This document shows, piece after piece, positions 2,271 through 24,598 of a DNA stretch of 39,661 bases. The stretch covers positions 1 through 39,661 of the forward strand of contig WION01000488.1 of NCBI GenBank assembly GCA_015039365.1. Reading direction: 5' to 3'. The translations under genes and the position numbers were made by a program. Source of the stretch: Amanita rubescens (taxonomy: Eukaryota; Basidiomycota; Agaricomycetes; Agaricales; Amanitaceae). The stretch's first letter is position 1; each line of letters opens with the position of its first letter. The notes below the pieces were generated by a model. It did not search any database and had not been told where the DNA came from. It worked only from the letters and a program-made list of their open reading frames with translations.

Positions 2271-3357
2271 GCCATGTTGTTTGGATGATAATGTCATTCA
2301 ACCTTTACCTACTAGTACTATTGGGAGTCAATTGTGAAATTTGAATCTACCAGAATAGCAGCTCAAAATGCCACTGACTCAAGGTGGATTGGTTCAGCAT
2401 TGCCAACTTCTGAGCTCAACCATATATATTAATATATATGTTGCCTGCACCCCCACTGTGCAGCAGAGGGGTGCATTAACACAGTAACTCAACAAATTCA
2501 GATACAAATTTTCAACACTATTGAACCTACTACTCCTCCCTGATATCCCAGATGATGTGCATGTAACAATGGTAAATTGATATGTAGTTGCAGTGGTACT
2601 TTTCAAATGAAACTCATCCAATAACCAGTGAATGTACATATACAGATGTAGTATATCAAATTCAATTCATGCCTGGAAGCATTCTGGATGAAAAGCACAC
2701 CTTCAGAAGCATGAATCTCAAATCACCTTTTTAGCTACTTGAAATGTTTGCTAATACATGGGTTAAGCAGTGAGTTCATAAACAATCTTATTTTTGTATT
2801 TCTGTCTCACAAATTACAATGTCACAACTTGAAAAATGATATCTGGTCATAGTTGTCAAACCAACAGCAAGCATGTATACACGATATATGTAGGAAAAAT
2901 TTGGGCTAAAGGGCCTTTGAAGTACAGTTTTATCAAGGAAAAGCATGTGAGGAAAAGATCACAAATATAGGCCTAGGAAGGAAAGGTGTTTTTCCATTTG
3001 CAGGTGACCATATCTATGCAGATTAAAAGCAAATTGGACAAAAATGTTAGCTTTCAGATTGTAAATGAAATGCACACCATTAGATGGAGATAGTCAAATC
3101 ATACAGAAAGGCAGTCAAAGCCTTTTTGTCAGAAGGCAAAAGATTCAGAAGTAATGTGCATCTTGAGTCTGCCCACGAAGTCTTGTTCCTTGAACTGGTT
3201 AAAAGCATCTTGTAATGATATAAGGAGTGGCTTCCTTATAAAAAATGACAGCTTGACAAGGATAGTCATTGCTTGTATATTGTTAGTTTAAAACCATAAA
3301 TCAAGCATTGTGTATTACAGACTAAGATTTGGAAGGCTATGGGCTGATTATATTATG
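2271..3357. other. AT-rich downstream flank of the microexon gene
   Basis: AT-rich sequence without a convincing open frame, following the stop codon of the GTPase gene in its direction of transcription. It includes an alternating TA run near 2425-2440. The repeated intron motif of the array is not seen here, so the array ends before this stretch. It could be 3' UTR plus spacer, or part of a larger inserted AT-rich segment starting near 2270. Confidence 0.4.
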
Positions 3358-6300
3358 TCAGCTGTGTGCTGCAGGCATAAATATAACTCCTACAGTTTCT
3401 TCAAAATTTGATACATCCTCTCCAAACAAAGAGAGAAGTCCAGCCTAGTGACTGATGAGCAGAATATCAACTTAATTTGGTAATGAGCACACAAGCTAAG
3501 TGCTCATTAGCATGTATGTATATCAATCTTTTGTGTCTTTTACCACTGACCTAGAGAACCAGTATTGAAGTTAAGAATGTGCAGAATGTACTGGTTGGAA
3601 GGCCATGTATAACATCTTACAATCTATGGATAATTTTGAAGTGTGAGTGATGGAAAAGAATATAAAAGACAGTATATTTCCTCACTTGCTGTTTGTTGTA
3701 ATCAGACTCCAGGACAGGAAACATTGCAGTATTGCTCACAGCCTGTTTGTATAAGGATAAGATCAGATCCTGATAAATCCAACATTACTCACAAACTGTT
3801 TGTTAGGGTATGGGATATGTACGGTCAGACCAGGTTGCAGAACAATGAAAACAGTGATGCAACCAACAATCTGTTGGTGACTGGAATCAGTATACATCTC
3901 ACTATGGCTGAAGCCTAGTGTGGTGCTACTGACATGCTGTTTATTATGAGGTGTGACATGATCAAGCTGAATGGAATGCAAACATGTTGTGTCACTCACA
4001 TCCTGGTGGTCTTAAATGAGACTTGTTTGCATGAAAAAAGATTAATGTTTTACTCACAAGCTATTCATCATGGGATACACTGTGGTTAGAGTGCCTTGCA
4101 GAGCTATACACTAACATCACTAACTTGCTATTGGTAATGGGATGAGTTTTGATCAGGCTGCCTTGAATACAGTTTTGTACACTATTACTCACTTCCTGTT
4201 GGTTATGGGATGTGATGTCATTAGAGTTCCAAGATAAAATGACAATATTGCTCACAAGCTGTTGGTCATAGAGATATGTGATCAGACTGACCAGTGGAAG
4301 AAGAAACTGCAGGAGTACTCACTTGCTTTTTGTATTGGGGGATATGGATATGTGACTGATATCTTGGCAGAAATCACTGGAGTCCCACTTACAAACTGTT
4401 TGGTGTGGAATGAGGTATCACACTTTCTGGAACAAAAAACCACATTATCACTCACTTGCTGTTAATTGATCAGCACATAATGAGATATGATTGCAACTGT
4501 TTGATGCATCACCACTTACTAACTGTTAGCAATTTTATGAGATTGACTAGCAGCACAACAAAGACAATAGTATTGTCACTTACTGCCTATTGATTGTGAG
4601 AAGAATGAGTAGTGGAAGAACCAGGGATGTAGTATTACCCACTTCCTGTTAGTCATAAGATGAGATTTTATCATGGTGTTCTGCAGAAGATCACTGCAGC
4701 ATCACTCACGGCCTTATATGGAGGGCAATATTTGATCAAATCATCTGACAGAAAGATGGCTCTAACTCACTTCCTATCATTTATGGAATGGTATGAGTTG
4801 AATGATTAGCAGGGAAACACTGCACTGTCACCTACTTTCTGTTGGTATTGGGGTGATATGTATCCATCTCAATAAATTGCCAAGCACAAATGCAACACAA
4901 TATCACTCACTGCTATCTGTTGTTCATGGAATGCAATTACATCCTTCCAGGCAGAAAAACAAAGACAGTAGTGCTACTTACTTCCTGTTGGTCATGGGTG
5001 TGATCATTTGATGTAATGAGTCAGACAATGTACCACAAGACATTGTAGTGCCCTCACCAGCTATGTATGATCAATGCATAATGAGTGATTATACTGGCAG
5101 GCAAAAGTTCTTCAGTGTCACTCACATTCTTTTGGCCATTGAATGGGATGGGATGAGATTGCTTGGCAGAAAACACTGCAGTATCACTCACCTCCTATTG
5201 GTCATAGAATGACAATGATTAGATCTGGTGTAAACAAGTCACAGAGCCACTCACTATCTGTTGGATGTGATCAGACTGTCTGCCAGAACATCACTTGAGT
5301 GTCACTCACTTCCTGTTTGTCATGGGAAGAGGTTCAGGCAAAGGCCATGGAAGAAAGTCACCATGGTACTACTCACTTCCTGTTGGTTGTGATATGGCAT
5401 GCAATTAGACTATCTGAAAAGTGGCACACACTTTCTGAAAACCAGCATAAGGTAGATTAATCTGATTGTCAGGAAGAATAGGATCTGAATGCTAGTAACA
5501 CTCACTCTCTGTTGGCCCTTGGATAAGATGTAATCACATCATTGCATGATAACTCACTTGCTGTGGACTCTGGATTGTGTACATGTGGTGTAGAGAGGCT
5601 GTCAGGAAAAAAAGCTACCCCATCACTTACAAGCTGTTGGTTATGCAATAGACATCAGAAAACTGCCTGACAGACAAAATTTTGTGCCACTTGCTTCCTG
5701 AGATAAAGAAACACATGACCAGGCTGCTTCAGTTTGGCCAAAAAATGGTGCACTTTTACTCACAACCTGTTAACAGATTTCATCAGACTCTCTGCTAGCA
5801 CATACAGCACCATTATTTACAATCTGTTGATTATTGCACAAAACATGATTAGGATGCCTGATAGGAATGACTGCATGTCACCTCCTGTTTGTCATGAGAT
5901 GAGTCTTGAATAATTGCTTGACAGAAGAACCTGAAGCATGACTTACAATCTGTGGTTGATGTCATGAGAAGTGATTGGACTACATGGCAGGAAAAGACTG
6001 GATTGCTACTGACTTGCTGTTGGTTATGAGATAGGATATAAATACTCAGATCTTAAAGCACTCATACCTTCTGTTCATTATGGAGTGTATTGTGATCAGA
6101 GATACTGCCTGATGAACATTGCAATGTTACTTACCTGCTGTTGGTCATGATGAGATGTACATGTTCAAACAAGTGGGATGGGATGAGTTTACTGCCACTC
6201 ACAAGCTACTCAATGTCACAGTGAGGATGTGTTTCAAAATGACCATGCAGGAACATTGCAGTGTCACTCACAAACTGTTATTATCACATGAGATATGATG

Positions 6301-9300
6301 ATTGTATGAGGTGGTAACAAATTTTACTAACATCCTGTTATGATAGAATGTTGTGATCAGATTCCTAGAAAAAAAGTGCAGCAATAATACCATAGTCTAT
6401 TGATCATGGGAAGAGATATCGATCAAACTGCATGAATGAAAAATGTTGCAATGTTGCTCACCCACTGCATATGTTGAGAGTGATCAAATGAGACAGCTAA
6501 TGGAAATCACTGCAGTATCACTCAACTATCTGTTGGTATGGTGTAAGATGTGATCAAAGTGTCTGATGGAAGACACTGCAGTACTACTCACTTCCTATTT
6601 GTCATGGAATAAAATACATATCATCAAGCTATATGTGAGAAGAAATGCAGTGCAACTTACTGACTATTAGTCAAGAGATTAGGTGTACCAGTTTACTTGC
6701 AGTGAAAAATTCATGCCAGAATTACTCACTTCCTGTCAGTCATCAGGTAGCATGTGATCAGACTAGAGCATCTGGCAAAAAGTACTGCTCACTTGCTGTT
6801 GGTCAAGGGATGAAATGCAATAAGACTACCTGGCAGGGAAAGGGGTAGTGTTGCTTACCTGCTGATGGTCATTGAATGAGATTTGATCCAGTTACTTGGC
6901 AGAACAACATTGCAGTGACTGTACTCACTTGCTGTTGGTGATGGATAAGATGTCATCATTGCCTAGAAACAATTCCTGCAGTGTTACTCACAAGCTGCTC
7001 TTAGATCATGAGATTTGGTCAGATCAGCCAACAGGAATTACTTACATCCTATTGTGTAATAAGGAGTGATCAGACTATTAACTGCAAAGATTCCAAAGTC
7101 ACCCACAACCTATTCCCATCATATGAGATGTGATCAAAAAATCCTACATCATCACAACTCACAACCTGTTGGTCACCAGAAATGTAATGAGATTGGCTCC
7201 CTGATACAAAAGTGTTTATTGGCACTTACACTCTGGAGGTCACATTATGAAAAGGATGGATGAGAGAAAAGCACTGCAGTAACTTACAGGCTGTTGGTCA
7301 TGGTAAGACTACATTTCTGAAGGCCACTGCAGTGTCACTCACCCACTGTTTGCCATGGATATGATGTGATTATCTTGTTTTCATAAAGTATGCTGGCCCT
7401 ACTCACCCACTATTGGTCATAGGATGTGATGCAAACAGTTGAGAAACAAGAAACAAAGCATGCACTCCTACTCACTTCCTGTTTGTCATAGAAGATTAAT
7501 TTTATCAGACTGCTTTGCAGAAAATTGCAGACCTCCTGTCATCATAACATTGGATGTAATCAGACCCCAAGTAATAAAAAAACAATGCAGGATCACTTAC
7601 AAGCTTTGGAATGACATGTGGTATCATCAGAGCATTTAAGACAAAAACTGCACTGGCACTTACAACCTATTTATTATGAATTGAGACAGGAATTAGAATG
7701 TCTGGTAAAGGACTCTAGTGTAACTGACAGACTGAATAACAGGTGATCTGAGGCCCCAAAGAACATAAGTGAAGTTCCACTCACTTGCTGTTGGTCATGA
7801 GAAGAAAAGTGGTTAAATTGGCTTGTATATGCCACTTGCCCACTATTGATCATGGGAGAAGTTTTAATCAGTCTCCCTGGCAAAAATACTTTGCTCACTC
7901 CCTGTTTTTATAGGGTGAGGTGTTCAGGATATATAAAGAAAATCAGCACCACTCACAATCTGTTGGCCATATGTGGTCAAACAGCCAGGAAGAGGCAGTT
8001 TTACTCACTTGCTGTTGTTGGTTATGGATGTGATGTGATCAGGCCACTCATTTGAGGGATGTGTCACTCACCCCCTGTGATTCATTAATGAGATGTGATA
8101 AAATTGTCCAGTAGAAAATGCAACACTGTTACTCACCCCCTGTTGTTATGTGATAAGATGTAATCAACTGCCTGACAGAAAAACACACCACAGTCACTCA
8201 CTTTCTATTTGTCATAAGACATGGTGCAAGAAAACTGTGAGGATACCTAGTGTCACTCACAAGCTATTCCCCATGGGATGAGGTGTAATCAGACCATCAC
8301 AATAAAAATATCACAGCATTGCTCACAATCTGTCAATAATGGGTGTGATGTATCAGACTGCCTGACAAAAAAGCAATGCAGCATCATTTATGGACCTTCT
8401 GTTGTGAAGAAGTATGGATGTGGTTAAATTGTTCAATAGAGAATAGTTAAATTACCCTCACTTGCTGTTGGTCATATTATAATACAAAAATTGATTGTGG
8501 TGCAGAAGGCCAAGGACTCCTGGCCACCCACCTTCTGTTGGAATGGGATGAGATTCAAATGCTATTTCTGGTAGTAATGTAGGTAGCTCACAAGCTAATG
8601 GCCACAGCATGAACATCATCAGATTGTCCACCAGAGCAAAACTGTATTGTCTTGCTCACTGTCTAACAATCATGGGACAAGTTTCATTAGACTGCCTGGT
8701 GGAAAAATGACAACTGTAGAGTCATTTACTTGCTGTTGGTTGTGGTGGGTGATATGATTAGATTTCTGGGCAGGAAAAAAGACTATTGTGTCACTTACTG
8801 ACTAATCATATCATGAAATGTGATTAGGCTGTCTGGAAAAACACAATGCAGGATCACATACATGCTGTAGTACTTAGTATGATCAAACTGTTAAGAAAAA
8901 CATACTGCAGTATCACTCACTTCCTGTTCATGATAATGAGGTATAATCAAATTTCCCAAAGAAATGATGCTGAAGCATCACACACAAGCTGTTGGGAGTG
9001 AGATGTGATGTGATTAGAATTTCTAAAACACTGTAGTGTCAAGCCATGTGTCTTACATTTTTTTCATCCTGTTCAATGTGCCATGATTGAGCACATCAGT
9101 GCAAGGGGATGTCAATACACTTACAACCTATTACATACTTCAATTGTTGCATGACTCATTAATATTGAAGGAACATACTGCTACAATACTCTATCCTTTA
9201 TCTTAGATTTTTTAACATTCCCATTAGAGGGTGCCACACACTCACCCAATAGTGTGGAAAGTGGATCAGAACCAACATGAAAATTATCTTCCATCTGGAA

Positions 9301-10513
9301 TCCCCTGCAGCCAAAATACATCTAAAAATTGTGAAATTCAGAGTGATGATCCTAATGTGATTTCTTACTTCAGTGCAGCTTTGATGCAAATATTGACATT
9401 GTTCATCTGTGTTGAGACAAACAACTGGAGAAGACTAGCATCATCAATTACATCAGCAGTCCTCTCAGTCAATTCTGGACAGTTATTCCCTGGAATATCC
9501 ATATCTGTTGAGCAACATTAGGACATAATATATTTAGGTTTTTTGTTTTAATTTCTACCTTCCAATCGCACATAGGCTTTTGGGGGATATCTTGTACTCA
9601 GGACTTTAGGAAGATAAACTCCCAGAAAAGTCTTATCAGCATTTTCTCTAGCCTTCTCCCACTTATCTTCAGCTTCATTCAACTGAGTAGATTCTTGAAT
9701 TATTTGACCATCAAATTTGGTGAATATCACTACCAAAGGCACTGAAAATGTATCATTCAGTTGAGAGTTGCAAAAAAAGGCTGAGAGGCTCTTGCCAACT
9801 CAACCAAATATTATGACAATGTGTAATTGGCTGCAGGACTAACCTTTCCCAATGCCTTTGGCAAAAAATTCAAGCTCTGCACATAGAAGAGGACGAGGAC
9901 TGTCCATGGGTATGCAGTACCTATAAAAAGCTTAGCCTGTTTACTGTTGAAAAGAATAAACAACATAAATACCAAATTGCATGTAATTGATCCTTAACTC
10001 GAGTTGCACTTGACCTCTTATCAATAAATTTCCAGACATTTACTAATTCCTCGCTTGCACCAGCTTCAAAACCCTGAGAGTCATGGAAGATAAAGTTGCT
10101 TCCAGGGTATGTAATTTGGTGTTCAATATCATGAATGCCTCGCTATAATCTATTGCATCTGATCCAATTGTTCATTTTCATAAGTCAACTCACCTCCATT
10201 GATGGTGTCAAATGTATTGTGGAAGGAACCAATTGTTGATCTAAAGCACAGTGAATACACATACAGTAGGTGAGGGTTTGGTTTAGCTCACCATTCTGAT
10301 CATAAATGACAGGCTCTGTCCCACTTTCTACACCACAGACCTTCTCAAGAATGGTTGTTTTGCCCGCATTGGCCCTTCCTATGATAAGAATCCGAAAATG
10401 GGGGCATTTGTATTGTTCCTTAAGCACTTTGATATATCCTACATCAGTCTCTGCAAGGCACAAGTCTGAATATTTGACATACCTGATACATGTGCACCAG
10501 CAGTCTCTGCCAT
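3358..10513 (-). CDS. P-loop GTPase gene with a tail of single-codon exons
   Basis: Predicted exons on the minus strand: 10513-10483, 10450-10292, 10240-10194, 10142-9973, 9920-9844, 9741-9559, 9504-9369, 9321-9246, then 89 microexons (9190 to 3493, listed in the array entry) and a last exon 3444-3358 ending in TGA. The product is about 418 residues. Exons 1-8 give a G domain: G1 GRANAGKT at 35-42, G3 DSQG at 100-103, G4 TKFD at 169-172. It resembles the AIG1/HSR1-like G-domain proteins that are very numerous in Agaricomycetes; the substrate is GTP by family inference and the cellular role is unknown. Residues 294-390 come from microexons and are rich in Gln, Glu, Leu and Ile with a helical, coiled-coil-like pattern. 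The last exon adds 28 residues beginning AGLLSLFGEDVSNFEE. Phases agree at every junction. Weak points: the 32-nt first intron (start uncertain), three poor donors, and the choice of the last acceptor. The alternative is that the frame stops at 9198 by reading through the donor at 9245. Confidence 0.72.
3493..9190 (-). repeat. Tandem array of intron plus single-codon microexon units
   Basis: About 89 diverged units of roughly 52-76 bp. On the minus strand each unit reads: donor (mostly GTGAGT or GTAAGT), a conserved 5' segment like GTGAGTGATACTGCAGTG, a branch-like core CAGTCTGATCACATC, an acceptor such as CCCATGACCAACAG, then exactly three variable bases before the next donor. First bases of the microexons (3 nt unless noted): 9190 (12), 9127, 9068 (12), 8988, 8923, 8864, 8801, 8732, 8662, 8594, 8534, 8464, 8398, 8329, 8263, 8204, 8139, 8074, 8011, 7959, 7901, 7842, 7787, 7731, 7666, 7603, 7535, 7478, 7409, 7345, 7290, 7232, 7165, 7109, 7048, 6994, 6931, 6861, 6795, 6732, 6663, 6594, 6529, 6464, 6396 (6), 6334, 6274, 6205, 6137, 6070, 6016, 5949, 5884, 5823, 5766, 5697, 5633, 5560, 5508, 5434, 5379, 5312, 5257, 5194, 5128, 5060, 4984, 4916 (6), 4838, 4773, 4712, 4645, 4586, 4522, 4458, 4395, 4326, 4258, 4195, 4127, 4060, 4002, 3936, 3870, 3795, 3742, 3688, 3623, 3495. 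Commonest triplets are CAA (12), GAA (11) and CTT (10). Poor donors follow 8398 (GTCCAT), 7535 (GTCTGC) and 3870 (GTTGGT). GC donors follow 7842 and 5697. The repeat structure is certain; its reading as spliced microexons is inference. Confidence 0.85.
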
Positions 10514-15226: not shown

Positions 15227-16312
15227 CTAGCGCCTCCTCTTCTTAGCGCCTGTTTTATCAGTGCTCGCTTTCCTCTTCTTACTAGTAGAGCCTCTCTCAT
15301 CGCTGCTCGCTTTCCTCTTCTTACTAGTAGAGCCTCTCTCATCGCTGCTCGCTTTCCTCTTCTTACTAGTAGAGCCTTTTTCATCGCTGCTTGCTTTCCT
15401 CTTCTTACTAGTAGAGCCTCTTTCATCGCTGCTCACTTTCCTCTTCTTAGCGCCTCTTTCATCACTGCTCGCTTTCCTCTTCTCTCTAACAGCCTCATCC
15501 CCACTGGTCTCTTCCCCACTGGTCTCATCCTCATCGGAACGACCATAGTAATCTTCCTCCCCTTCATCTTCCTCATACACGCGTGGACGCCCCCCTTTTA
15601 CCGACCGCTCCACACTCCTAAACCTGACCTCCATCCCCAACCGGTCCCGCTCTTTAGCCGTCAACCGCCACTCCTTCCCCTTCACCAATCGCTTCCCCAG
15701 ATAATAGCCGGACCACGAACTGTGGCCCCCTCCCTGAAGGTGCCACTCAAACACCAAAAACGGGGACCCATTATCATCCAGCACCACCGAAACGCCCACT
15801 GCATTGCCCTCCGTATCCAACCATGTTGCGCTGTCCTCGTCGTCCTGCTCCTCATTCAGCAGCACCTCCCAATAGCTCTCCACGACAGCCGCGTTCGAAG
15901 ACTTCCCCTTCCGCACATGCCGCATGCCGTCAAACGCGACCGTGCACGTACCCCAGGCGATGTGCCCGCTAACGTCCTCGGGCGCGACTGACTGGCCAGG
16001 ACGGTGCTTTGCAGCGCCGAGCATGATGCTGTGCCTCGCGATGAAAGCCGCGTCGTCCTTGTAGTCGCTGCGGTGCATATCCTCGACATCCCCGCCCCAC
16101 TCTGGGTCACCGCTGAACAGCCAGACGTAGGTGCCCAGGATGTCGGCAAGCCGTGTGGGGGTGTCGCGCATTTCCTGTGTAGTAGGTTGAGAAACATGCG
16201 AAACTTTTGCAGGGTTTTTTCCCGCCCAAGTCTAAGAATTACTCACAACTCCTGCAACGACTGTTTCATATGAGTCATCCCAATATTTCGGAGCGTCGCG
16301 CGGCTTGGCCAT
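15227..16312 (-). CDS. Unknown protein with repeated lysine-rich tail
   Basis: Two exons, 16312-16247 (22 codons, starting MAKPRDAPKYWDDSYETVV) and 16174-15227, are joined across an intron with GTGAGT donor and ACACAG acceptor, giving 337 residues. Residues 1-230 form a globular-looking region with several Trp and Gly positions (LADILGTYVWLFSGD, FEWHLQGGGHSSWSGYYLG) that I do not recognise. An acidic stretch (EEDEGEEDYYGRSDEDE) follows. About five copies of a 14-residue unit, GSTSKKRKASSDER, then end in KKRRR. The basic clusters look like nuclear localisation signals, so a nuclear or nucleic-acid-associated protein is a reasonable inference. The ORF on the other strand through the repeats is a mirror of this gene. 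Confidence 0.72.
15250..15480 (-). repeat. Coding minisatellite, 42-bp unit
   Basis: About five near-identical 42-bp units encode the GSTSKKRKASSDER motif at the C-terminus of the gene at 15227-16312. Units differ by single changes (for example DEK for DER). Because the unit is a multiple of three, copy-number change keeps the frame. Expect copy number to vary between strains. Confidence 0.85.
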
Positions 16313-17230: not shown

Positions 17231-18030
17231 TTAGTTTTTTGTATAGATGGCAATGGATGCATTCTTTCCTCTGCAGTGGTATAAATTTTGTATTGTGTTT
17301 ATCATACCATCATATATTGGCTCATCACCCGTAGTAATACCATCATGGAACCATGTCATTCCATTTTCATATACAATTCGAGAGGTGAAATGGTAATTTG
17401 AAAAGTAAATGATTCCTCTCAACATATATGTATGATGTTCCTGATCTATTGTCACATTGAATCTACTATTAATCTGGAATTCATGACCTGATACATCCAA
17501 AGCTACAATTGGAAGTGCATAAGCAAATCTGAATTTTCTATATATGTTTATTTGACATAAATTGCATATCCCTTCTATGTCTTCTCTGAAATTTGTCATC
17601 CAAGATTCAGTAGATAATTCCCCCTGTGCACCAGCAACTATTAGACAACTATTGTTGCGAAGCTGAACATCTTCCACTAAGTGTTCATTGTAGCAATGTA
17701 TAGATCTTTGAAGAGTATCTATTGGAGTCTCAAGTAGGATTTCCAAAAGCCTAGTGATACTAGTGTAGCGTCCCCATGCAAAGTTTATTGGAGATAACTG
17801 TTCTAATCTGAAACGTAAATTATCTCTGCTTGCATTCAATGATATCAGTCCAATATTGGATGCTGTGAAGTTGTTTAAAAGAGGACCCATTATTCTCTCA
17901 TTCATGTTTCTAAATGTATCATCCCATTTCATACAGTCACTCTTCCAAATAGCATGTAATATGCTCAAAGCAGAATCATATGCACAGCTGTTTTCAGTCC
18001 AAGAAAATCCTGAAGGTGTTAATGATGAAA
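17231..18030 (-). other. Protease-like domain at the Helitron C-terminus
   Basis: Codes for about residues 2115-2378 of the Helitron protein. A linker with several KKTNKS/LQSKK-type basic repeats precedes it. The order Cys box (NSCAYDS), distant His box (YHFTSR) and a nearby Asp in WFHDG fits the C19/C98-like ubiquitin-specific protease arrangement. OTU-type cysteine proteases known from other Helitrons have a different Asp-Cys-His order. Assignment is by motif only. Confidence 0.5.
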
Positions 18031-21000
18031 CAGATATCACATTACTTGTCTCTATGTCAGGGGCTGATTTGTTTGTTTTTTTGTTAATCTTTTTTTCAAA
18101 CATCTGGTTACAGTCAATTAGTTTTAATTTTTTTGATTGTAGGAGGATGTCACACTCTTTCAGGTTTCTTTTTTTAGATTGTAAGGGGACACTTCCTTTT
18201 GCAGGAATAAAAGAGTTAATGACATTTGTTGAACCAAGATTTGCAACACTTTTATTTGTTTTCTTCAGTATCTTCCATTCTACATCATCTTCTATTGGAT
18301 CAAGCATTGGGTCAGATTTGCTCCACCTAATTGCACGATGTACTGCTGAAGGCACATAAGACTCCCCTTTATACTTTCTGTAACTTTGTATTAAAGTATT
18401 CCTTCTATATCCACTTACATTATTTGGCAGCTTGCTCTCATGTTCAAGTTTAGTTATTTCATCTAGCAACTCCAAGTCTCTGAACTCTTGTCTCAAAGCT
18501 CGAGATGCTCTACCTGTTATCTTTTTTGCATCAAAGCTTTGAAGGATAATTGTCCCTTCTGCAGTTGCACTCCTTGAAAGTGCAGTATAATAAGACTGAT
18601 GTGATCTACAATATGTCAAATCAACAACATTATATGGACGAGTTTTCCCTTGTGATGCAAAGTCAGTCATTGCAAAGTTTGGAAGAACTTCTACTTGAGA
18701 TCTGGACAAGCTGAGTTTGCTATCATCAGGCAATTTGCACATTATGACATTTGTAGTACGAGTCAATGGAACTACATTTAGAGGTAAAGTATTTAATGTG
18801 ATGTCTTTTGGAGGGTTCAAGAGCTTTACAAATAGAGTCTCCAATATAAGCTGCCCTTTGGTCCCTATTGTTGAATCCCAACCAACAACAATAGCCTCTT
18901 GGCCATTTGTGATGCATAGTTCAGTTGCAGCATTGCATTTAATGATGACAGGGAGTCCTATACAGAGTGACAATTTACCTGGTACATGCTTATCAGCAGA
19001 GGAATGTGGAAGGTTCCATATAATCTGTTGCAATTCATTAGAGATTGCAGCCAATTTCCTAGTTTTCCTTTTTCTTCTTGTAGTATTTTCATCAGTTGTG
19101 ACCCTTAGTGAGTCTTCTGAATAGAACATAGTTAGTTGTTGACCAGTTTCTTGTGCAAACTTTATACACCCCAACCTGTTGATTTCATCTTTTTGTATGT
19201 TCCTTGCAGTGATTATTGATATATTTCTGAACTTTGGATCACATATTGAGGGCTTTCCTGGGACAAGAGATGTAATTCTTGATCTTAGAAACTGTATGTC
19301 ATCAGTAGTGCAATCTTTGTGTCTCATATTTTCCAATGCTGAGCGAAACTTATCATCATCTTCTGTATTTTGTTGTTGTCTCATATTTTGCCTAAGAATC
19401 ACAACAGTTGTAACTTGGTGCCAAACAGCTCTTCCAATTGCTTCTTCTTGTGATCTCAGGGATGTTCCAAATTGTCCTATTGTACGGCTATATAGGGACA
19501 CATTTTCTCCACCTATTGGTGGAGGCAGTTGTGCAAAGTCACCAGCAAATATTATGTTTATACCTCCAAAGGGTGTATCTAATCGATTATTAACCCTTGC
19601 AAGCTGTGTGCTGATCCTGTATAAATCATGGCATGAAAGCATTGACACCTCATCCAAGAATACATAATCAACACCTTGTAATCGTGTTCGTACTTGAGAT
19701 AACATCTTTTCAGATGCATTTTCACTTAGGTCATTTATTCCTAAAACCGAGTGATATGTTGATCCAGACAACAGTGCAGCAGCTGAACCTGTTGGAGCAA
19801 CAGCAATTAACTGATGAGCTTTATTTTGTGCAAAAAAGAAGGATGTAACTGCTTTAATTACTTGAGATTTACCTGTTCCTCCCATTCCTCCAATATACAT
19901 CTTCAGTTGACCTGAGTTCACCATTACAACATGATGTGCAATTATTTTGAATGCACGTTCCTGCTCTTGATTTAATTTAAACTCTGTACATAATGAGTTG
20001 ATAGAATATTCATGAATGGTTTTGTAATGTTTTTTTTCCAAATATGATTTGTCAATGACTTGGACAACATTTGGTTTACCATGACACTTTGAGAGACCTT
20101 CTTCTGGAGAATCAGATTGATGTTTGATTCTATCTGCAATAACTTTTTGCTTTTCTATTTGTACAATCGCCTTCCAATCAGATCCTTTCAAGTTTGCAGA
20201 CTTGATTGGATTTATTGTTTTGGAATCAATCTGAGGAGAAATTTCATTTGTCCAGCCAGTTTGTCGCATCACAGCCCTAATATCTGCCATTTCTCTCTGT
20301 AGCTTTAATTCCTTGTTGCCTATTATGTTCTGATTGGTTTCAATGCCATCATGTAAGTAAATCCCATCAACATAACTTTCTGGAGATATTTCTTCATCAT
20401 TAGTCTCTATGTTTTCATTAAACATGAACAATGCTGCTCCCTTCCCTGCCTTCATTTGAGCACGATAGTCATCTCGAGCATCAAGGCACTCATATTTAAT
20501 ATTAAAGTTCCTCATCAATTGATACTGTCTTTGTGTAAAGTTGTGATTTATAAATGTTTCATCCCAAGAAATCTCAATGTTTTTTAAGGAATTCCCTGTT
20601 CTCCATGGTTTGAATAAAGTCAGCATTGTCATACAATAGTATTCTCTGTTGCCTTGGTCACACCTAGGTAATGTGCCTCCTATAAAATTTACAACTATAT
20701 TTTCTTTGTCTGGGTAAACATGAGTAACATGTGTTTCACACAAGGGATGTGACTTCTTGAAATAGTACATATTATTCTGCAGTTTCTTAGACTTACCTTC
20801 ATCTTCACCTTCACTATTTTCATCCCTATCATATTCATCAATCAATTCACACTCAGAAGGACAATCTTCACATTCATCATCACTAAATGCACCATTGACT
20901 TTACTTGTCTTCTTATTTAAGTCTCTGGATGAAATACGCTTTCGGTCACATCTTCTAACCCAGTCATACAAACACATGTCTTCTAATTCATTTGGCCTGT

Positions 21001-24000
21001 AAATGTAGTCATATACAGGTGAAAATCCAATTATTCTTTTTTTTACTTTTAGAATTGCAACTTTACTATTTAGGGTAGATGCCACATCAGAGTCCCACAC
21101 ACTATGCACCTCATTAACAAATGATTTCCAGTAGAACGAGACAAATTTATGTGAGGTGTAGTGATCTGGATTCCCAAGGAGGTACATGCAAACCATTGGT
21201 CCACCCATTTCTGATTTGGTTGACAGCAAGTTTACCATTTTTGTCAGCAATTGTCGAGCTTTATCCTTTTCAGAAATTGAACTCCCAATGATTTCTTGAT
21301 TTCTATCAAATATGCTTTTTATTGCTTCAAACACTACATGTGTTTTTAAGCTGCTTTTAGTAATATAGTCAGAAATGTAGACAATAACTGCCTTTAATGC
21401 AGTACCTGACCACATGCTTGTTACATCTGTGTTGCACCTGAATATATATGTCAAATAAGTAGTAATGAAGTTCATCCAAGGTTCACCTTTTTTCAGGTTC
21501 AAAGCCCCAGACTCTGCATCAATTTGAGTCACTTCAAAAGTAGGTCTTGGAAAGCGTGCTTTGCATGTTCCATATTTGTTGTCTCTACACCCCACATATG
21601 CCACCCTTTTGTTAATTGAACCATCCTTGTTTAACCCTCTATCACAGTTATGAATGTTTGACTTGCTGACAATATCATCCACTACAAATTCAAAATTTTT
21701 CCACCAAGATTCAACATCAGAACATTTCTGGCAGTCATTACATTCAGTTGGGCACATTGGGGGAGGTGCATCAGGCAAAGTTTCAGTAGGGTCTTTATAG
21801 TCCTCTGATTTACTAATGTGGTCCATTCTTTGTAAGATTTCATCTTTTGTTCCTGTCAAAAATTCTCCAATCTGACAACTTTCAATCCATGCAATGATTT
21901 TTTCTTGGAAGTCAGAGTTTGGATCCAGAATGAGGTCACGCATTTCCTGTGGTGTCAAGTTTCCCTTGATCCATAGCATCATATGTAAATGAAGAGCCAG
22001 TCTGCCTTGCTGTTCAACAGTACCATAGAAAGCTTTAGTATGACCATACAAGCCCATATGTGTAGAACCAACCCCAAGAACATCACAAATAAATGTGTTT
22101 ACTAAAAAGTGGAAAAATCTTGCACATGCCACTGGATTGCTGCAAATCCGCCTTAGACGTTCATCATAAGGTAGGCTAATTGGTTCAAATAATGCCTCAT
22201 TTCCGGCATAGTAAATGCAAATAGGATGTTTTACATCTGCTGGAGATAATGTGATATACCAAAATGGTGCTCCACAGTGTGCAACAAGAGACCAAATCTC
22301 ATTTCTCATCCATTTCTTGCTTGTATTGGATCCTTTAACTTTACCAGAAACATGATCTAAATCTCTAATCAGTTGAAAACACTGCTTTTCTGCTTCAGTA
22401 TTTGGCTCAACAAAGTCATCCTTTGACAGGCGATGAATGATTGAGTTCAGTGCATCAGCATCAATACTCAGAAGCCTCCCTGATATGTCATCAAAAATAC
22501 GCTTTTCAGCTAGTAAAAAACCATTAGTTGTAGCTGCTTTAACTTGTTCATGACTAAATGCTACAAAAGGGAAGTTAGGATCTGTTTGAAATCTTTTATC
22601 ATGATACATAAGTAGTCGTCTTTTGTGTTCAGCATCTGACAATCTTGGTACACTTCCTATACCACCTAATCCATAAGGAAATAGCCAGGGAAACATTTGA
22701 GGATATAAATGGGGATTTTTCCAGATGCTTTCAGCTTGGGCACCATGTCCAACTGCAAGAACCTTGCCTTGATTGTTTAAGTGATGCAATGCCTTAGCCT
22801 TGACTTCATTTAATGACATTATGTTAAGTTGCTCTCCTGTTAATCCATGGACTGTGAAAGAGCACATACCTTCCTCTGTTCCATCTTCATCCTCCATATC
22901 ATGCACACTTGTACCTTCAGCAGTTTTATTGGTAAACAATTGTTTGAATTCTACACTAACTGGGGGCATATCTTCTGGATAGCTTTCTAGATTTGATTCA
23001 GATACACACACATCAGCATAATCTGCATGATTTAGAATGAGCCAGTTTAGAGCTCTCTTTACATGATTACGACGGACTAGAAATGGTGTTCTCTTGAAAT
23101 CAGCTGCAGATGGTTTACAAGGGCCTGTAAACATGATTGCCAAAACCTCTTCTATGTCATCCTTTGGGGGAGGTAGCATGTCGTATACTTTTGGTAGAGG
23201 AGAAGGGAAGGCTATAGCATTTGCTTTCATTTTCCGCATTCCTGATGCAATTTTTATGGAGCAACAAGAATGTCGCACCCTGGCAACTAGCATTTGCTCC
23301 ACTAGTCTTAAGGAAGACAATTCATCTGGAATTTCACCAATCCAAAGCCCATTGGCAAGCGCATGTTTAGGCACTTTGCCTTTGCGCAGAGCAGTTCTAC
23401 ATGTGTTACATACATGTTTGCAAGAATGATCTATGACCACAGGATATTCTTTTAATTTATCATGCTCCTTGTGTCTCTCCTGTCTAGTAACACCCGGAGT
23501 ATTTAACACATGAAGAAGGTTCTTAACATTTTTTAAACTTGAGAGAAGTTTTACACTGGTCAACTGCCCACATACAGCACATCCTAATTCTTCAATGTTT
23601 ATCTTAGACATTTTTTGGCATGCTCCAGTAATAACTGTATGTGCAATACTTTTAGTAATTGGGGGCGGTGGAAATATTGAATCCAATGTTTCTTCTACAA
23701 TAGTTGAACTATCTGCTAATTTATAATATGTGTCTACTGATTTGTCCTTCATATCATTTATATTATTCACTTTCATATTTTTAATAAATTTTCTGGTCTT
23801 AGATCTAGTATCTGTTATCTCTAGTTTGAACTTATCAACAATTTTTGGGGGTTTTTCCATTTTATCTGGTTTGTTCACAGCAAATATTGTAACAAATTTG
23901 TGACACTCAGAACAAGAATGTAATAAGAAAAGGTTGTGAAGCATAGCTGAAGTTGATCGTGAGCCTACATTCATCCCATGTGATTGAGCCAGTTGTCGAC

Positions 24001-24598
24001 ATGCTGATACAGGGATGATCTTTACAAGTGCACTCAGAGGTATGGATGTCTGCACATACATTGAATCAATATATTGATCCTTTGGCTCTTTGGTGTGTTC
24101 AATATATTGGAAAGTGCAACCAGATTTTGCTAAGTGACCTTGTATCGCTTTAGGCAGATAAGGCATCAACATATCATAGGAAATAGGACGCATTCTATAG
24201 CCACCAATATGTTCAGACCTTTTAGATGCTGAGAGTTTAAATTGACTAATGTCATGCCATACATTCAAACACATTTCAATGACCACCAATGTGATGAAAG
24301 CAGCAAATTGCATCTCATCTGAGACAATATGTAACCATACTTGTATGATAACAAGCAAAAGAGTCATACCCCTGTCTTGGGCAACTAAGTTAAGAATATA
24401 TGCTATTCTACATTGAACATAAAGTTGCTGTTATACATATATTATGGTGTTAGAACATTATATGGAATCATAGCTTGAACTTACAGATAAGAATGTATCT
24501 GATATTGAATAAACACAAGACATTGAATTGTGAATCAAATCTATAGGATCATATGTATTAAGACCTTGAGGGTAATATCGAATATAGATTCTTACCAT
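17231..24598 (-). CDS. Helitron Rep-helicase with C-terminal protease-like domain
   Basis: A 2378-codon uninterrupted frame (24367-17231), probably extended upstream: 24427-24368 adds 20 codons, and a 57-nt intron (24484-24428, GTAAGT...AACAG, branch CTAAC) joins 24598-24485. Residues below count from the Met at 24367. CxxC pairs near 152-156, 263-266 and 316-323 suggest an N-terminal zinc module. The Rep nuclease HUH motif is H793-L-H795 in LALHLHMMLWIKG, and the two catalytic tyrosines are Y997 and Y1001 (YISDYITK). The SF1B PIF1-like helicase has Walker A GGMGGTGKS at 1493-1501, Walker B VFLDEVSML near 1569, and GDFAQLPP at 1609-1616. The last 260 residues resemble a cysteine protease of the ubiquitin-hydrolase kind: ENSCAYDSAL (C2128), NYHFTSRIV (H2326), WFHDG (D2342). 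Helitrons move by rolling-circle replication; the intact frame suggests a recent or active copy. Element termini were not resolved. Confidence 0.93.

Follow-up and report, generated by a model that had tools for sequence, protein, structure and literature searches.

A GTPase gene of Amanita rubescens predicted to build its tail from about 85 single-codon exons

Can a stretch of protein be encoded one codon per exon? The question is raised by a GTPase gene on the minus strand (10513-3129) of a 39,661-nucleotide piece of the Amanita rubescens genome (contig WION01000488.1, positions 1 to 39,661), here called the window. Directly downstream of the GTPase exons lies what looks like a decayed satellite, and an earlier note, made from the letters of the DNA, had read it as a tail of about 85 consecutive single-codon exons. 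The answer proposed here, a prediction made from sequence, is that 85 three-nucleotide exons are very probably joined by splicing, codon by codon, to form the tail of a GTPase that belongs to a large family. Such a tail is most likely hypervariable, tolerant of recombination, and built one codon per exon.

A chain of splice signals around triplets

The minus strand from 9245 to 3445 is a chain of introns of about 62 nt separated by 3-nt exons. Between 9246 and 3358, AG-NNN-GT occurs 128 times on the minus strand and 20 times on the plus strand, and 200 dinucleotide shuffles give 25.3 ± 4.4 occurrences, with a maximum of 37. When the distance from AG to GT was scanned from 0 to 12 nt, counts above the shuffle mean were obtained at 3 nt (128), 7 nt (82), and 10 nt (40). 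The excess at 7 nt is a +4 echo of GTGAGT. At 10 nt the shuffle mean is 26.1 and the shuffle maximum 41.

The array was also parsed blind, as a dynamic-programming chain whose acceptor and donor matrices were trained on the arrays of other loci (339 sites, every one of them taken as AG-NNN-GT). The prior was flat over exon lengths of 1-15 nt, and codon content was unused. In the window the parser returned 87 units, with exons of 3 nt in 79, 6 nt in four, 12 nt in two, and 7 and 8 nt in one each. Each of 60 shuffled controls yielded at most one unit, and neither the plus strand nor part of the neighbouring transposon yielded any. The acceptor-NNN-donor series that the earlier note had described for 9245-3358 is thus borne out both by the count and by the blind parse.

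Gene model of the window

The single codons join, in one frame, the eight GTPase exons upstream to a C-terminal domain downstream (Table 1). Exon E8 is taken to start at 9321 because the acceptor tttttag yields the family frame (KCILAAGDSRWKIIFMLVLIHFPHYW) and sets the array in phase 0, so that the eight exons stand directly upstream of the array and in frame with it, as had been claimed. Within the array, registers were set by eye at the GC donors 7842 and 5697, the double acceptors 6997 and 6208, and the odd donor 6529, and the last two units (3623 and 3495) were added by eye, as were the three C-terminal exons, which were placed against relatives. The adjusted model contains 89 tail exons, 85 of them single codons, and its 97 tail codons, the number originally predicted, hold no stop. 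The peptide formerly assembled from 20 of these microexons, DFLQKQIEIVELQRKEEIEN, is reproduced once the GC donor at 5697 has been set. As a whole, the predicted gene comprises 100 exons, 99 introns, and 462 residues with no internal stop, and its protein starts with the GTPase domain. From E8 onward the 92 introns measure 47-125 nt, 90 being GT-AG and 2 GC-AG. Single-codon exons account for 85 of the 100 predicted exons by number and for 255 of 1,389 nt by length.

Two parts of the earlier description were not supported. The uninterrupted extension was recovered, but the exon following it, formerly described as a normal terminal exon stopping at 3358, probably splices on after 3394 into the C-terminal domain common to the relatives, and the stop at 3358 is then predicted to fall inside an intron. 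The 20-microexon peptide had also been described as an amphipathic helix. Tested statistically over the whole tail, amphipathic periodicity is not significant in the window (p = 0.41), nor in L022 (0.16), L024 (0.81), or L026 (0.34), and gives p = 0.006 in L028 and p = 0.028 in L065 (six tails, uncorrected).

Table 1. Predicted exons and array parts of the GTPase gene in the window.
Feature	Coordinates	Strand	Basis
E1, predicted first coding exon (ATG)	10483..10513	-	Open frame and splice signals; start codon predicted
E2, P-loop exon (GRANAGKT)	10292..10450	-	Gene model
E3 of GTPase	10194..10240	-	Gene model
E4 of GTPase	9973..10142	-	Gene model
E5 of GTPase	9844..9920	-	Gene model
E6 of GTPase, family probe	9559..9741	-	E6 peptide against own assembly: 150 scored matches among 246 candidates
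E7 of GTPase	9369..9504	-	Gene model
E8, ending FPHYW in phase 0	9246..9321	-	Acceptor same in paralogue L065; frame common to family
12-nt exon SIVA	9179..9190	-	Called in window, its identical copies, and L036-L040 (there SIVA or SILA)
12-nt exon DEKN (DEPN in L065)	9057..9068	-	Blind parse and L065 comparison
First array part, conserved	7343..9127	-	28 compared single-codon exons
Middle array part, variable single-codon exons; 6-nt exons at 6396 and 4916	4125..7290	-	46 compared codons
Last array part, codons L D H I F A Q I L into C-terminal domain	3493..4060	-	L065 comparison; last two units by eye
C-terminal exon 1 (AGLLSLFGEDVSNFEET)	3394..3444	-	Resembles LPGLLSLFQ of P0024; alignment with last codons not significant
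C-terminal exon 2 (PIAFQILV), predicted	3319..3343	-	Donor set by eye to match the relatives' frame
C-terminal exon 3 to first stop, predicted	3129..3271	-	By-eye likeness to NIIAKLSF...KLKTCITSES of P0017

Triplets as probable codons

Were the array a decayed, non-coding satellite within one long intron, the mRNA would join 9246 directly to 3444. Tandem units of similar length suit such an origin, as do the 20 NCBI family models that were compared, in none of which the tail appears and in only one of which (P0083) the C-terminal domain was recognised. Against a satellite, stops are nearly absent at the triplets. The 888 three-nucleotide exons of 26 non-redundant loci (loci with a recognised E8, 13 duplicates having been dropped by name) include 1 stop, where 47.7 are expected from position-specific composition. 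TAA does not occur among them, and CAA, AAA, and GAA occur 96, 57, and 102 times. The lone stop, in L029, adjoins a 7-nt call and is probably a register error.

Conservation also argues against a satellite, since the first codons are preserved while the introns diverge. Relative to the paralogue L065, the first 28 codons of the window differ at 3 of 84 nt and the intron bodies at 251 of 1303 (19%; descriptive p = 6e-5). Across the middle 46 codons, in which no stop was found, the corresponding figures are 31 of 138 nt and 444 of 2232 (descriptive p = 0.44). The last six compared codons differ at 1 of 18 nt, five of the six being identical; 3 more were not comparable. Nine units were skipped in the whole-array comparison and eight in the comparison by parts, on account of gaps or other lengths. 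The contig of the copy at C276 breaks off within the array; of the 70 codons compared there, 2 differ from those of the window.

Of the 888 single-codon exons, 87.5% have A or T as their third base and 1.2% have C, and F, Y, N, and H are each specified there by one codon (TTT, TAT, AAT, and CAT). Perhaps splicing disfavours G or C beside the donor.

Uninterrupted proteins matching sister loci

Several JGI proteins of the family run through 315-478 uninterrupted residues on contigs of 1.2-1.7 kb. These contigs are far too short for the introns of the array and so look like cDNA. The blind string of C618 (L061 joined to L066), DWTLHGKGKLKLTLFGLDMFHNYFNIDTKRFNCLLDL, aligns with NWTLHGKGKLKLSLFGHDIFHNYYNLNTRRFSEILNI of P0048 over 37 residues without a gap and with a score of 148, the best of 5,000 shuffles reaching 57. 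A directed alignment of the same pair follows 35 single-codon exons, its final exon being misaligned. The comparison was widened to 182 pairs, 26 loci by seven hand-picked tails, in which pairs scoring at least 35 were shuffled 1,000 times; for at least 22 pairs, those placed first by shuffle count, the score was reached by 0 of 1,000 shuffles. L059 (WFAEAKKQADREREF) is identical to P0026 (WFAEAKKQADGEREY) at 13 of 15 positions, L028 (EWFEQGKKEADREIKHDG) matches P0025 (0 of 1,000 shuffles), and L023 matches P0024 in 20 of 46 columns, running into the end of the variable region. The agreement of strings from sister loci with proteins of short contigs, led by C618 and P0048, together with the scarcity of stops and the conservation of the first part, led us to reject the satellite, which we regard as extremely improbable. 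The central claim of the earlier note, a GTPase gene with a tail of about 85 single-codon exons, is upheld by the same lines of evidence and by the blind parse.

The proteins also give a view of how the tail varies. P0017 and P0019, likely read from transcripts, combine constant ends with an unlike middle: 279 of 292 residues are identical in the GTPase part and 87 of 92 in the C-terminal part, as against 11 of 29 aligned positions in the variable stretch, which measures 48 residues in P0017 and 31 in P0019. A search with residues 296-461 of P0017 returned only P0017 and P0019, and one with residues 285-418 of P0048 returned only P0048.

The exons could be real and yet be included at random, in which case one gene would give many in-frame tail isoforms and the diversity would reside at the RNA level. 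Skipping a single-codon exon costs no frame, and the cited portion of a study of schistosome micro-exon genes (MEGs) describes them as alternatively spliced (PMC4015677). The 37 consecutive residues shared without a gap by C618 and P0048 are, however, what constitutive inclusion predicts, and random inclusion appears unlikely.

Points that weigh against single-codon splicing

A number of observations weigh against the reading of the array as a series of spliced single codons. Probable support at the transcript level comes from sister loci, the window gene itself being read from its DNA alone, and the JGI contigs are judged likely to be cDNA from their length and uninterrupted frames. The last codons of the window line up in register with P0017, P0019, and P0024 but not significantly so, with scores of 40, 44, and 41 and shuffle maxima of 46, 44, and 48. 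A branch-like CTRAY motif is found in 40 of the 87 introns, where 16 are expected. Taken unsplit, the comparison with L065 gives 50 of 80 codons against 0.552 (p = 0.115, one unit being misregistered); the division of the array into three parts was made after the changes had been seen, and the p-values for the parts are therefore descriptive. Neighbouring introns of the window lack any special similarity, so that no sign of local duplication by steps can be seen in it. In many loci the blind parse includes between one and four calls with a length that three does not divide. Those of 7 nt often end in GCAA, which resembles a GC donor, and the remaining odd lengths count against the model. The uniform parts of two arrays treated below, L032 and L063, likewise hold exons of 2 or 4 nt and have sums not divisible by three, a fault from which the uniform part of L067 is free.

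The window copy also probably ends about 20 residues early, because it meets a TGA at 3131-3129 and its relatives run about 20 residues further in another frame. This early stop, the odd donor at 6529, and the odd units at 6396 and 4916 would suit a dying pseudogene of the family. Such decay seems improbable to us, given 97 tail codons in frame and a first tail part that is conserved relative to L065.

Spread of the arrays through the GTPase family

When up to 2 mismatches are allowed, the unit pattern matches the assembly 5,464 times, whereas the reversed pattern does so 123 times (60 + 63). Homologues of the GTPase number 1,355 proteins at E ≤ 0.001, and Amanita rubescens leads among the best 120. 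The assembly is partly redundant, a copy at C56 being identical to the window over 6,278 bp. Among 30 GTPase loci for which the DNA downstream was at hand (L033-L062, with the window and duplicates among them), 29 have arrays of this kind, as a parsed chain in 26 and as 13-14 unparsed, unit-like matches in L042, L043, and L046. In the remaining locus, L041 (G000:C765:7358-10540), an insertion from about position 1824 onward interrupts E7 of a close GTPase copy, and for that reason no array follows. Judged from its letters, the insert appears retrotransposon-like.

In 9 of 12 other regions read, the parse lies behind a GTPase exon ending in FPH(F/Y)W. No GTPase E4 or E6 was found within the sequence fetched for L026/L027 (one array) or for L030 (at a contig end), the placing covering a minority of the 5,464 matches. 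L026/L027 (G000:C3:122000-141000) holds 113 high-scoring units in the 19 kb fetched, and an E6 match lies at C3:115096, about 7 kb upstream of the fetched part.

Among six relatives compared with the Pfam model MMR_HSR1 (PF01926), P0087 scores 25.2 against a curated cut-off of 21.9, and P0017, P0024, P0048, P0118, and P0111 fall below it. None of the six has a NACHT or NB-ARC match at E up to 0.1.

Unlike codons in uniform introns

Three near-identical copies of the gene, L032, L063, and L067, bear on how the codons change. L032 was picked for its uniform introns and the other two were fetched as close copies, so that the sample is not random; a fourth close copy, L068, was excluded because its introns are non-uniform (among 8 modal introns, 55 of 496 sites depart from the consensus). 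The upstream flanks of the three are 98-99% identical and the downstream flanks 94-96%. All share one 62-nt intron consensus, from which 3, 6, and 4 distinct substitutions were counted in L032, L063, and L067, respectively. In the same order, 7, 10, and 8 exon alleles were counted among 45, 30, and 26 units. Two exons of an array differ on average by 0.304, 0.525, and 0.584 per site and two introns by 0.0031, 0.0077, and 0.0084, which gives codon-to-intron diversity ratios of 98, 68, and 70. The codon strings differ in length and could not be lined up. In L028, introns differ by 0.052 per site and codons by 0.397.

Length changes affect 6 of 108 exons and 4 of 105 introns, although introns are 20 times as long (two entries of 127 nt are missed units). 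The exons of lengths other than 3 read AATT, CA (three times), CATT, and CTTC. Exons of 2 or 4 nt break the frame, and selection for new residues alone therefore does not explain the exon-focused change.

The variety of codons in young arrays could nonetheless stem solely from diversifying selection on amino acids, recombination having homogenised the introns and mutation not being focused. Of the 30 codons that changed between the window and L065, 29 specify a different residue (one of them is misregistered), although most random changes would do so too. Frame-breaking exons of 2 or 4 nt, which amino-acid selection would not favour, are concentrated in the exons as well, and a codon-to-intron ratio of 68-98 fold is large. 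We regard selection alone as a serious candidate that falls somewhat short of being probable.

A second account of the same pattern holds that mobile, introner-like introns burst into an ordinary exon, in place of the multiplication of an intron-plus-codon unit. Such a burst would yield identical introns and unlike codons without hypermutation, and it agrees with the star-like similarity of introns in the window and L065: similarity within the window is about 0.58 at every lag, neighbours being no closer than distant introns, and stepwise local duplication, sought as neighbour similarity, was not seen in either array. In L022, L024, and L028, intron similarity falls weakly with distance. A burst does not, however, readily accommodate a spacing that is nearly always exactly one codon in phase 0, three near-identical gene copies whose codon strings are of different and unalignable length, or the block of units in L067 that, by eye, has been duplicated with its marked introns, the codons carried along. 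We doubt that a burst produced these arrays.

Proposed mechanism and putative role

Each short intron would be removed by ordinary intron-definition splicing. Because nearly all exons consist of a single phase-0 codon, introns could cross over or slip against one another in any register and the frame would be kept. Recombination between introns would then be frame-neutral, and the tail could grow, shrink, and reshuffle safely, its middle turning over while its ends stay conserved. In young arrays, codons may in addition change by an exon-focused process, either junctional error or targeted mutation, together with selection. The array is likely a means of varying a protein by single residues.

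The variable tail may be the part with which a GTPase of self-recognition or defence senses or chooses its partners, which is the weakest step of the proposal. The predicted structure of P0048 has a mean predicted local distance difference test (pLDDT) score of 76.9; confidence is low over residues 278-313, and the model is helical from residue 305 on. A Foldseek search with this model placed IRG/p47 immunity GTPases first, with dynamin-like proteins among the top matches (best E 3e-6). The template modelling (TM) score is about 0.35 at best for most matches, and the IRG rows have a root-mean-square deviation of 12-16 Å and 10-15% identity; the likeness of the modelled structure to IRG/p47 is a lead and not a sign of membership. 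This lead, the expansion of the family, and the hypervariable tail together suggest that the tail recognises self or invaders, a putative role.

Joined together, these steps would amount to codon-cassette diversification in a family of fungal GTPase receptors, which would keep their variable region in the form of intron-codon units. Interchangeable introns would act as the joints for recombination and change would be aimed at the single-codon exons, yielding an anticipatory repertoire for self-recognition or defence that is edited residue by residue. The full scheme is offered tentatively, as a possibility that we lean against in its entirety.

Comparison with known systems

No gene with arrays of single-codon exons was found among the open-access papers listed (subscription papers and bioRxiv preprints lay outside the scope), in keeping with the earlier note, whose author knew of no gene with dozens of successive 3-nt exons. 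Schistosome MEGs also have runs of tiny exons and variable products, and the window gene, with its 85 single-codon exons, is a gene with multiple very small exons in their sense. It differs from them in that nearly all of these exons are one codon, in the position of the tail between a GTPase and a C-terminal domain, and in that the codon is itself the variable part. Drosophila homothorax and plant APC11 and VPS55 demonstrate that exons of 1-3 nt can be included; such exons are described, in the cited portions of the reports, as isolated cases and not as arrays (PMC7392893; PMC8831610).

Precedents exist for the multiplication of introns. A Cryptococcus gene gained introns identical to its others through the expansion of intron-bearing DNA repeats (PMC2395259). 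That case concerns two gained introns, and neither single-codon exons nor hypervariable codons figure in the part of the description drawn on here. Fungal introner-like elements are reported, in the portion cited, as near-identical introns present in many copies in unrelated genes, with neighbours 145-626 bp apart (PMC4457414), whereas the Amanita units form dense arrays, mostly behind one gene family in the regions read. For recognition, a parallel is that of HET-E and HET-D, fungal NOD-like receptors in which a nucleotide-binding domain is followed by highly alike WD40 repeats that are reshuffled by recombination and set recognition specificity, according to the cited part of that source (PMC10197012). 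Those repeats are domains of 20-40 residues; in the Amanita arrays the repeat is the intron, each unit adds one residue, and a role in recognition is putative.

If true, this would be by far the most fragmented coding stretch known to us, the open-access papers listed included. It would test the removal by the spliceosome of about 90 consecutive short introns around 3-nt exons, and it would represent a gene architecture whose frame survives recombination between introns. Should a focused process diversify the codons, the arrays would be a counterpart, in a eukaryote, of the diversity-generating systems already known, and the family would be a concrete candidate for nonself recognition in mushrooms, which is poorly understood. 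A further warning is that standard annotation can overlook tails of this kind, which appear in none of the 20 NCBI models compared.

Other features of the window

A 42-bp tandem repeat of 5.9 copies occupies 15244-15483, within a 314-aa open reading frame on the minus strand, where its translation gives repeats like SSDERGSTSKKRKA; a Pfam scan of this frame at E 0.001 gave no match. On the minus strand at 17231-24367 lies a transposon of Helitron type, whose long open frame (2,378 aa) carries Helitron_like_N and PIF1 helicase domains.

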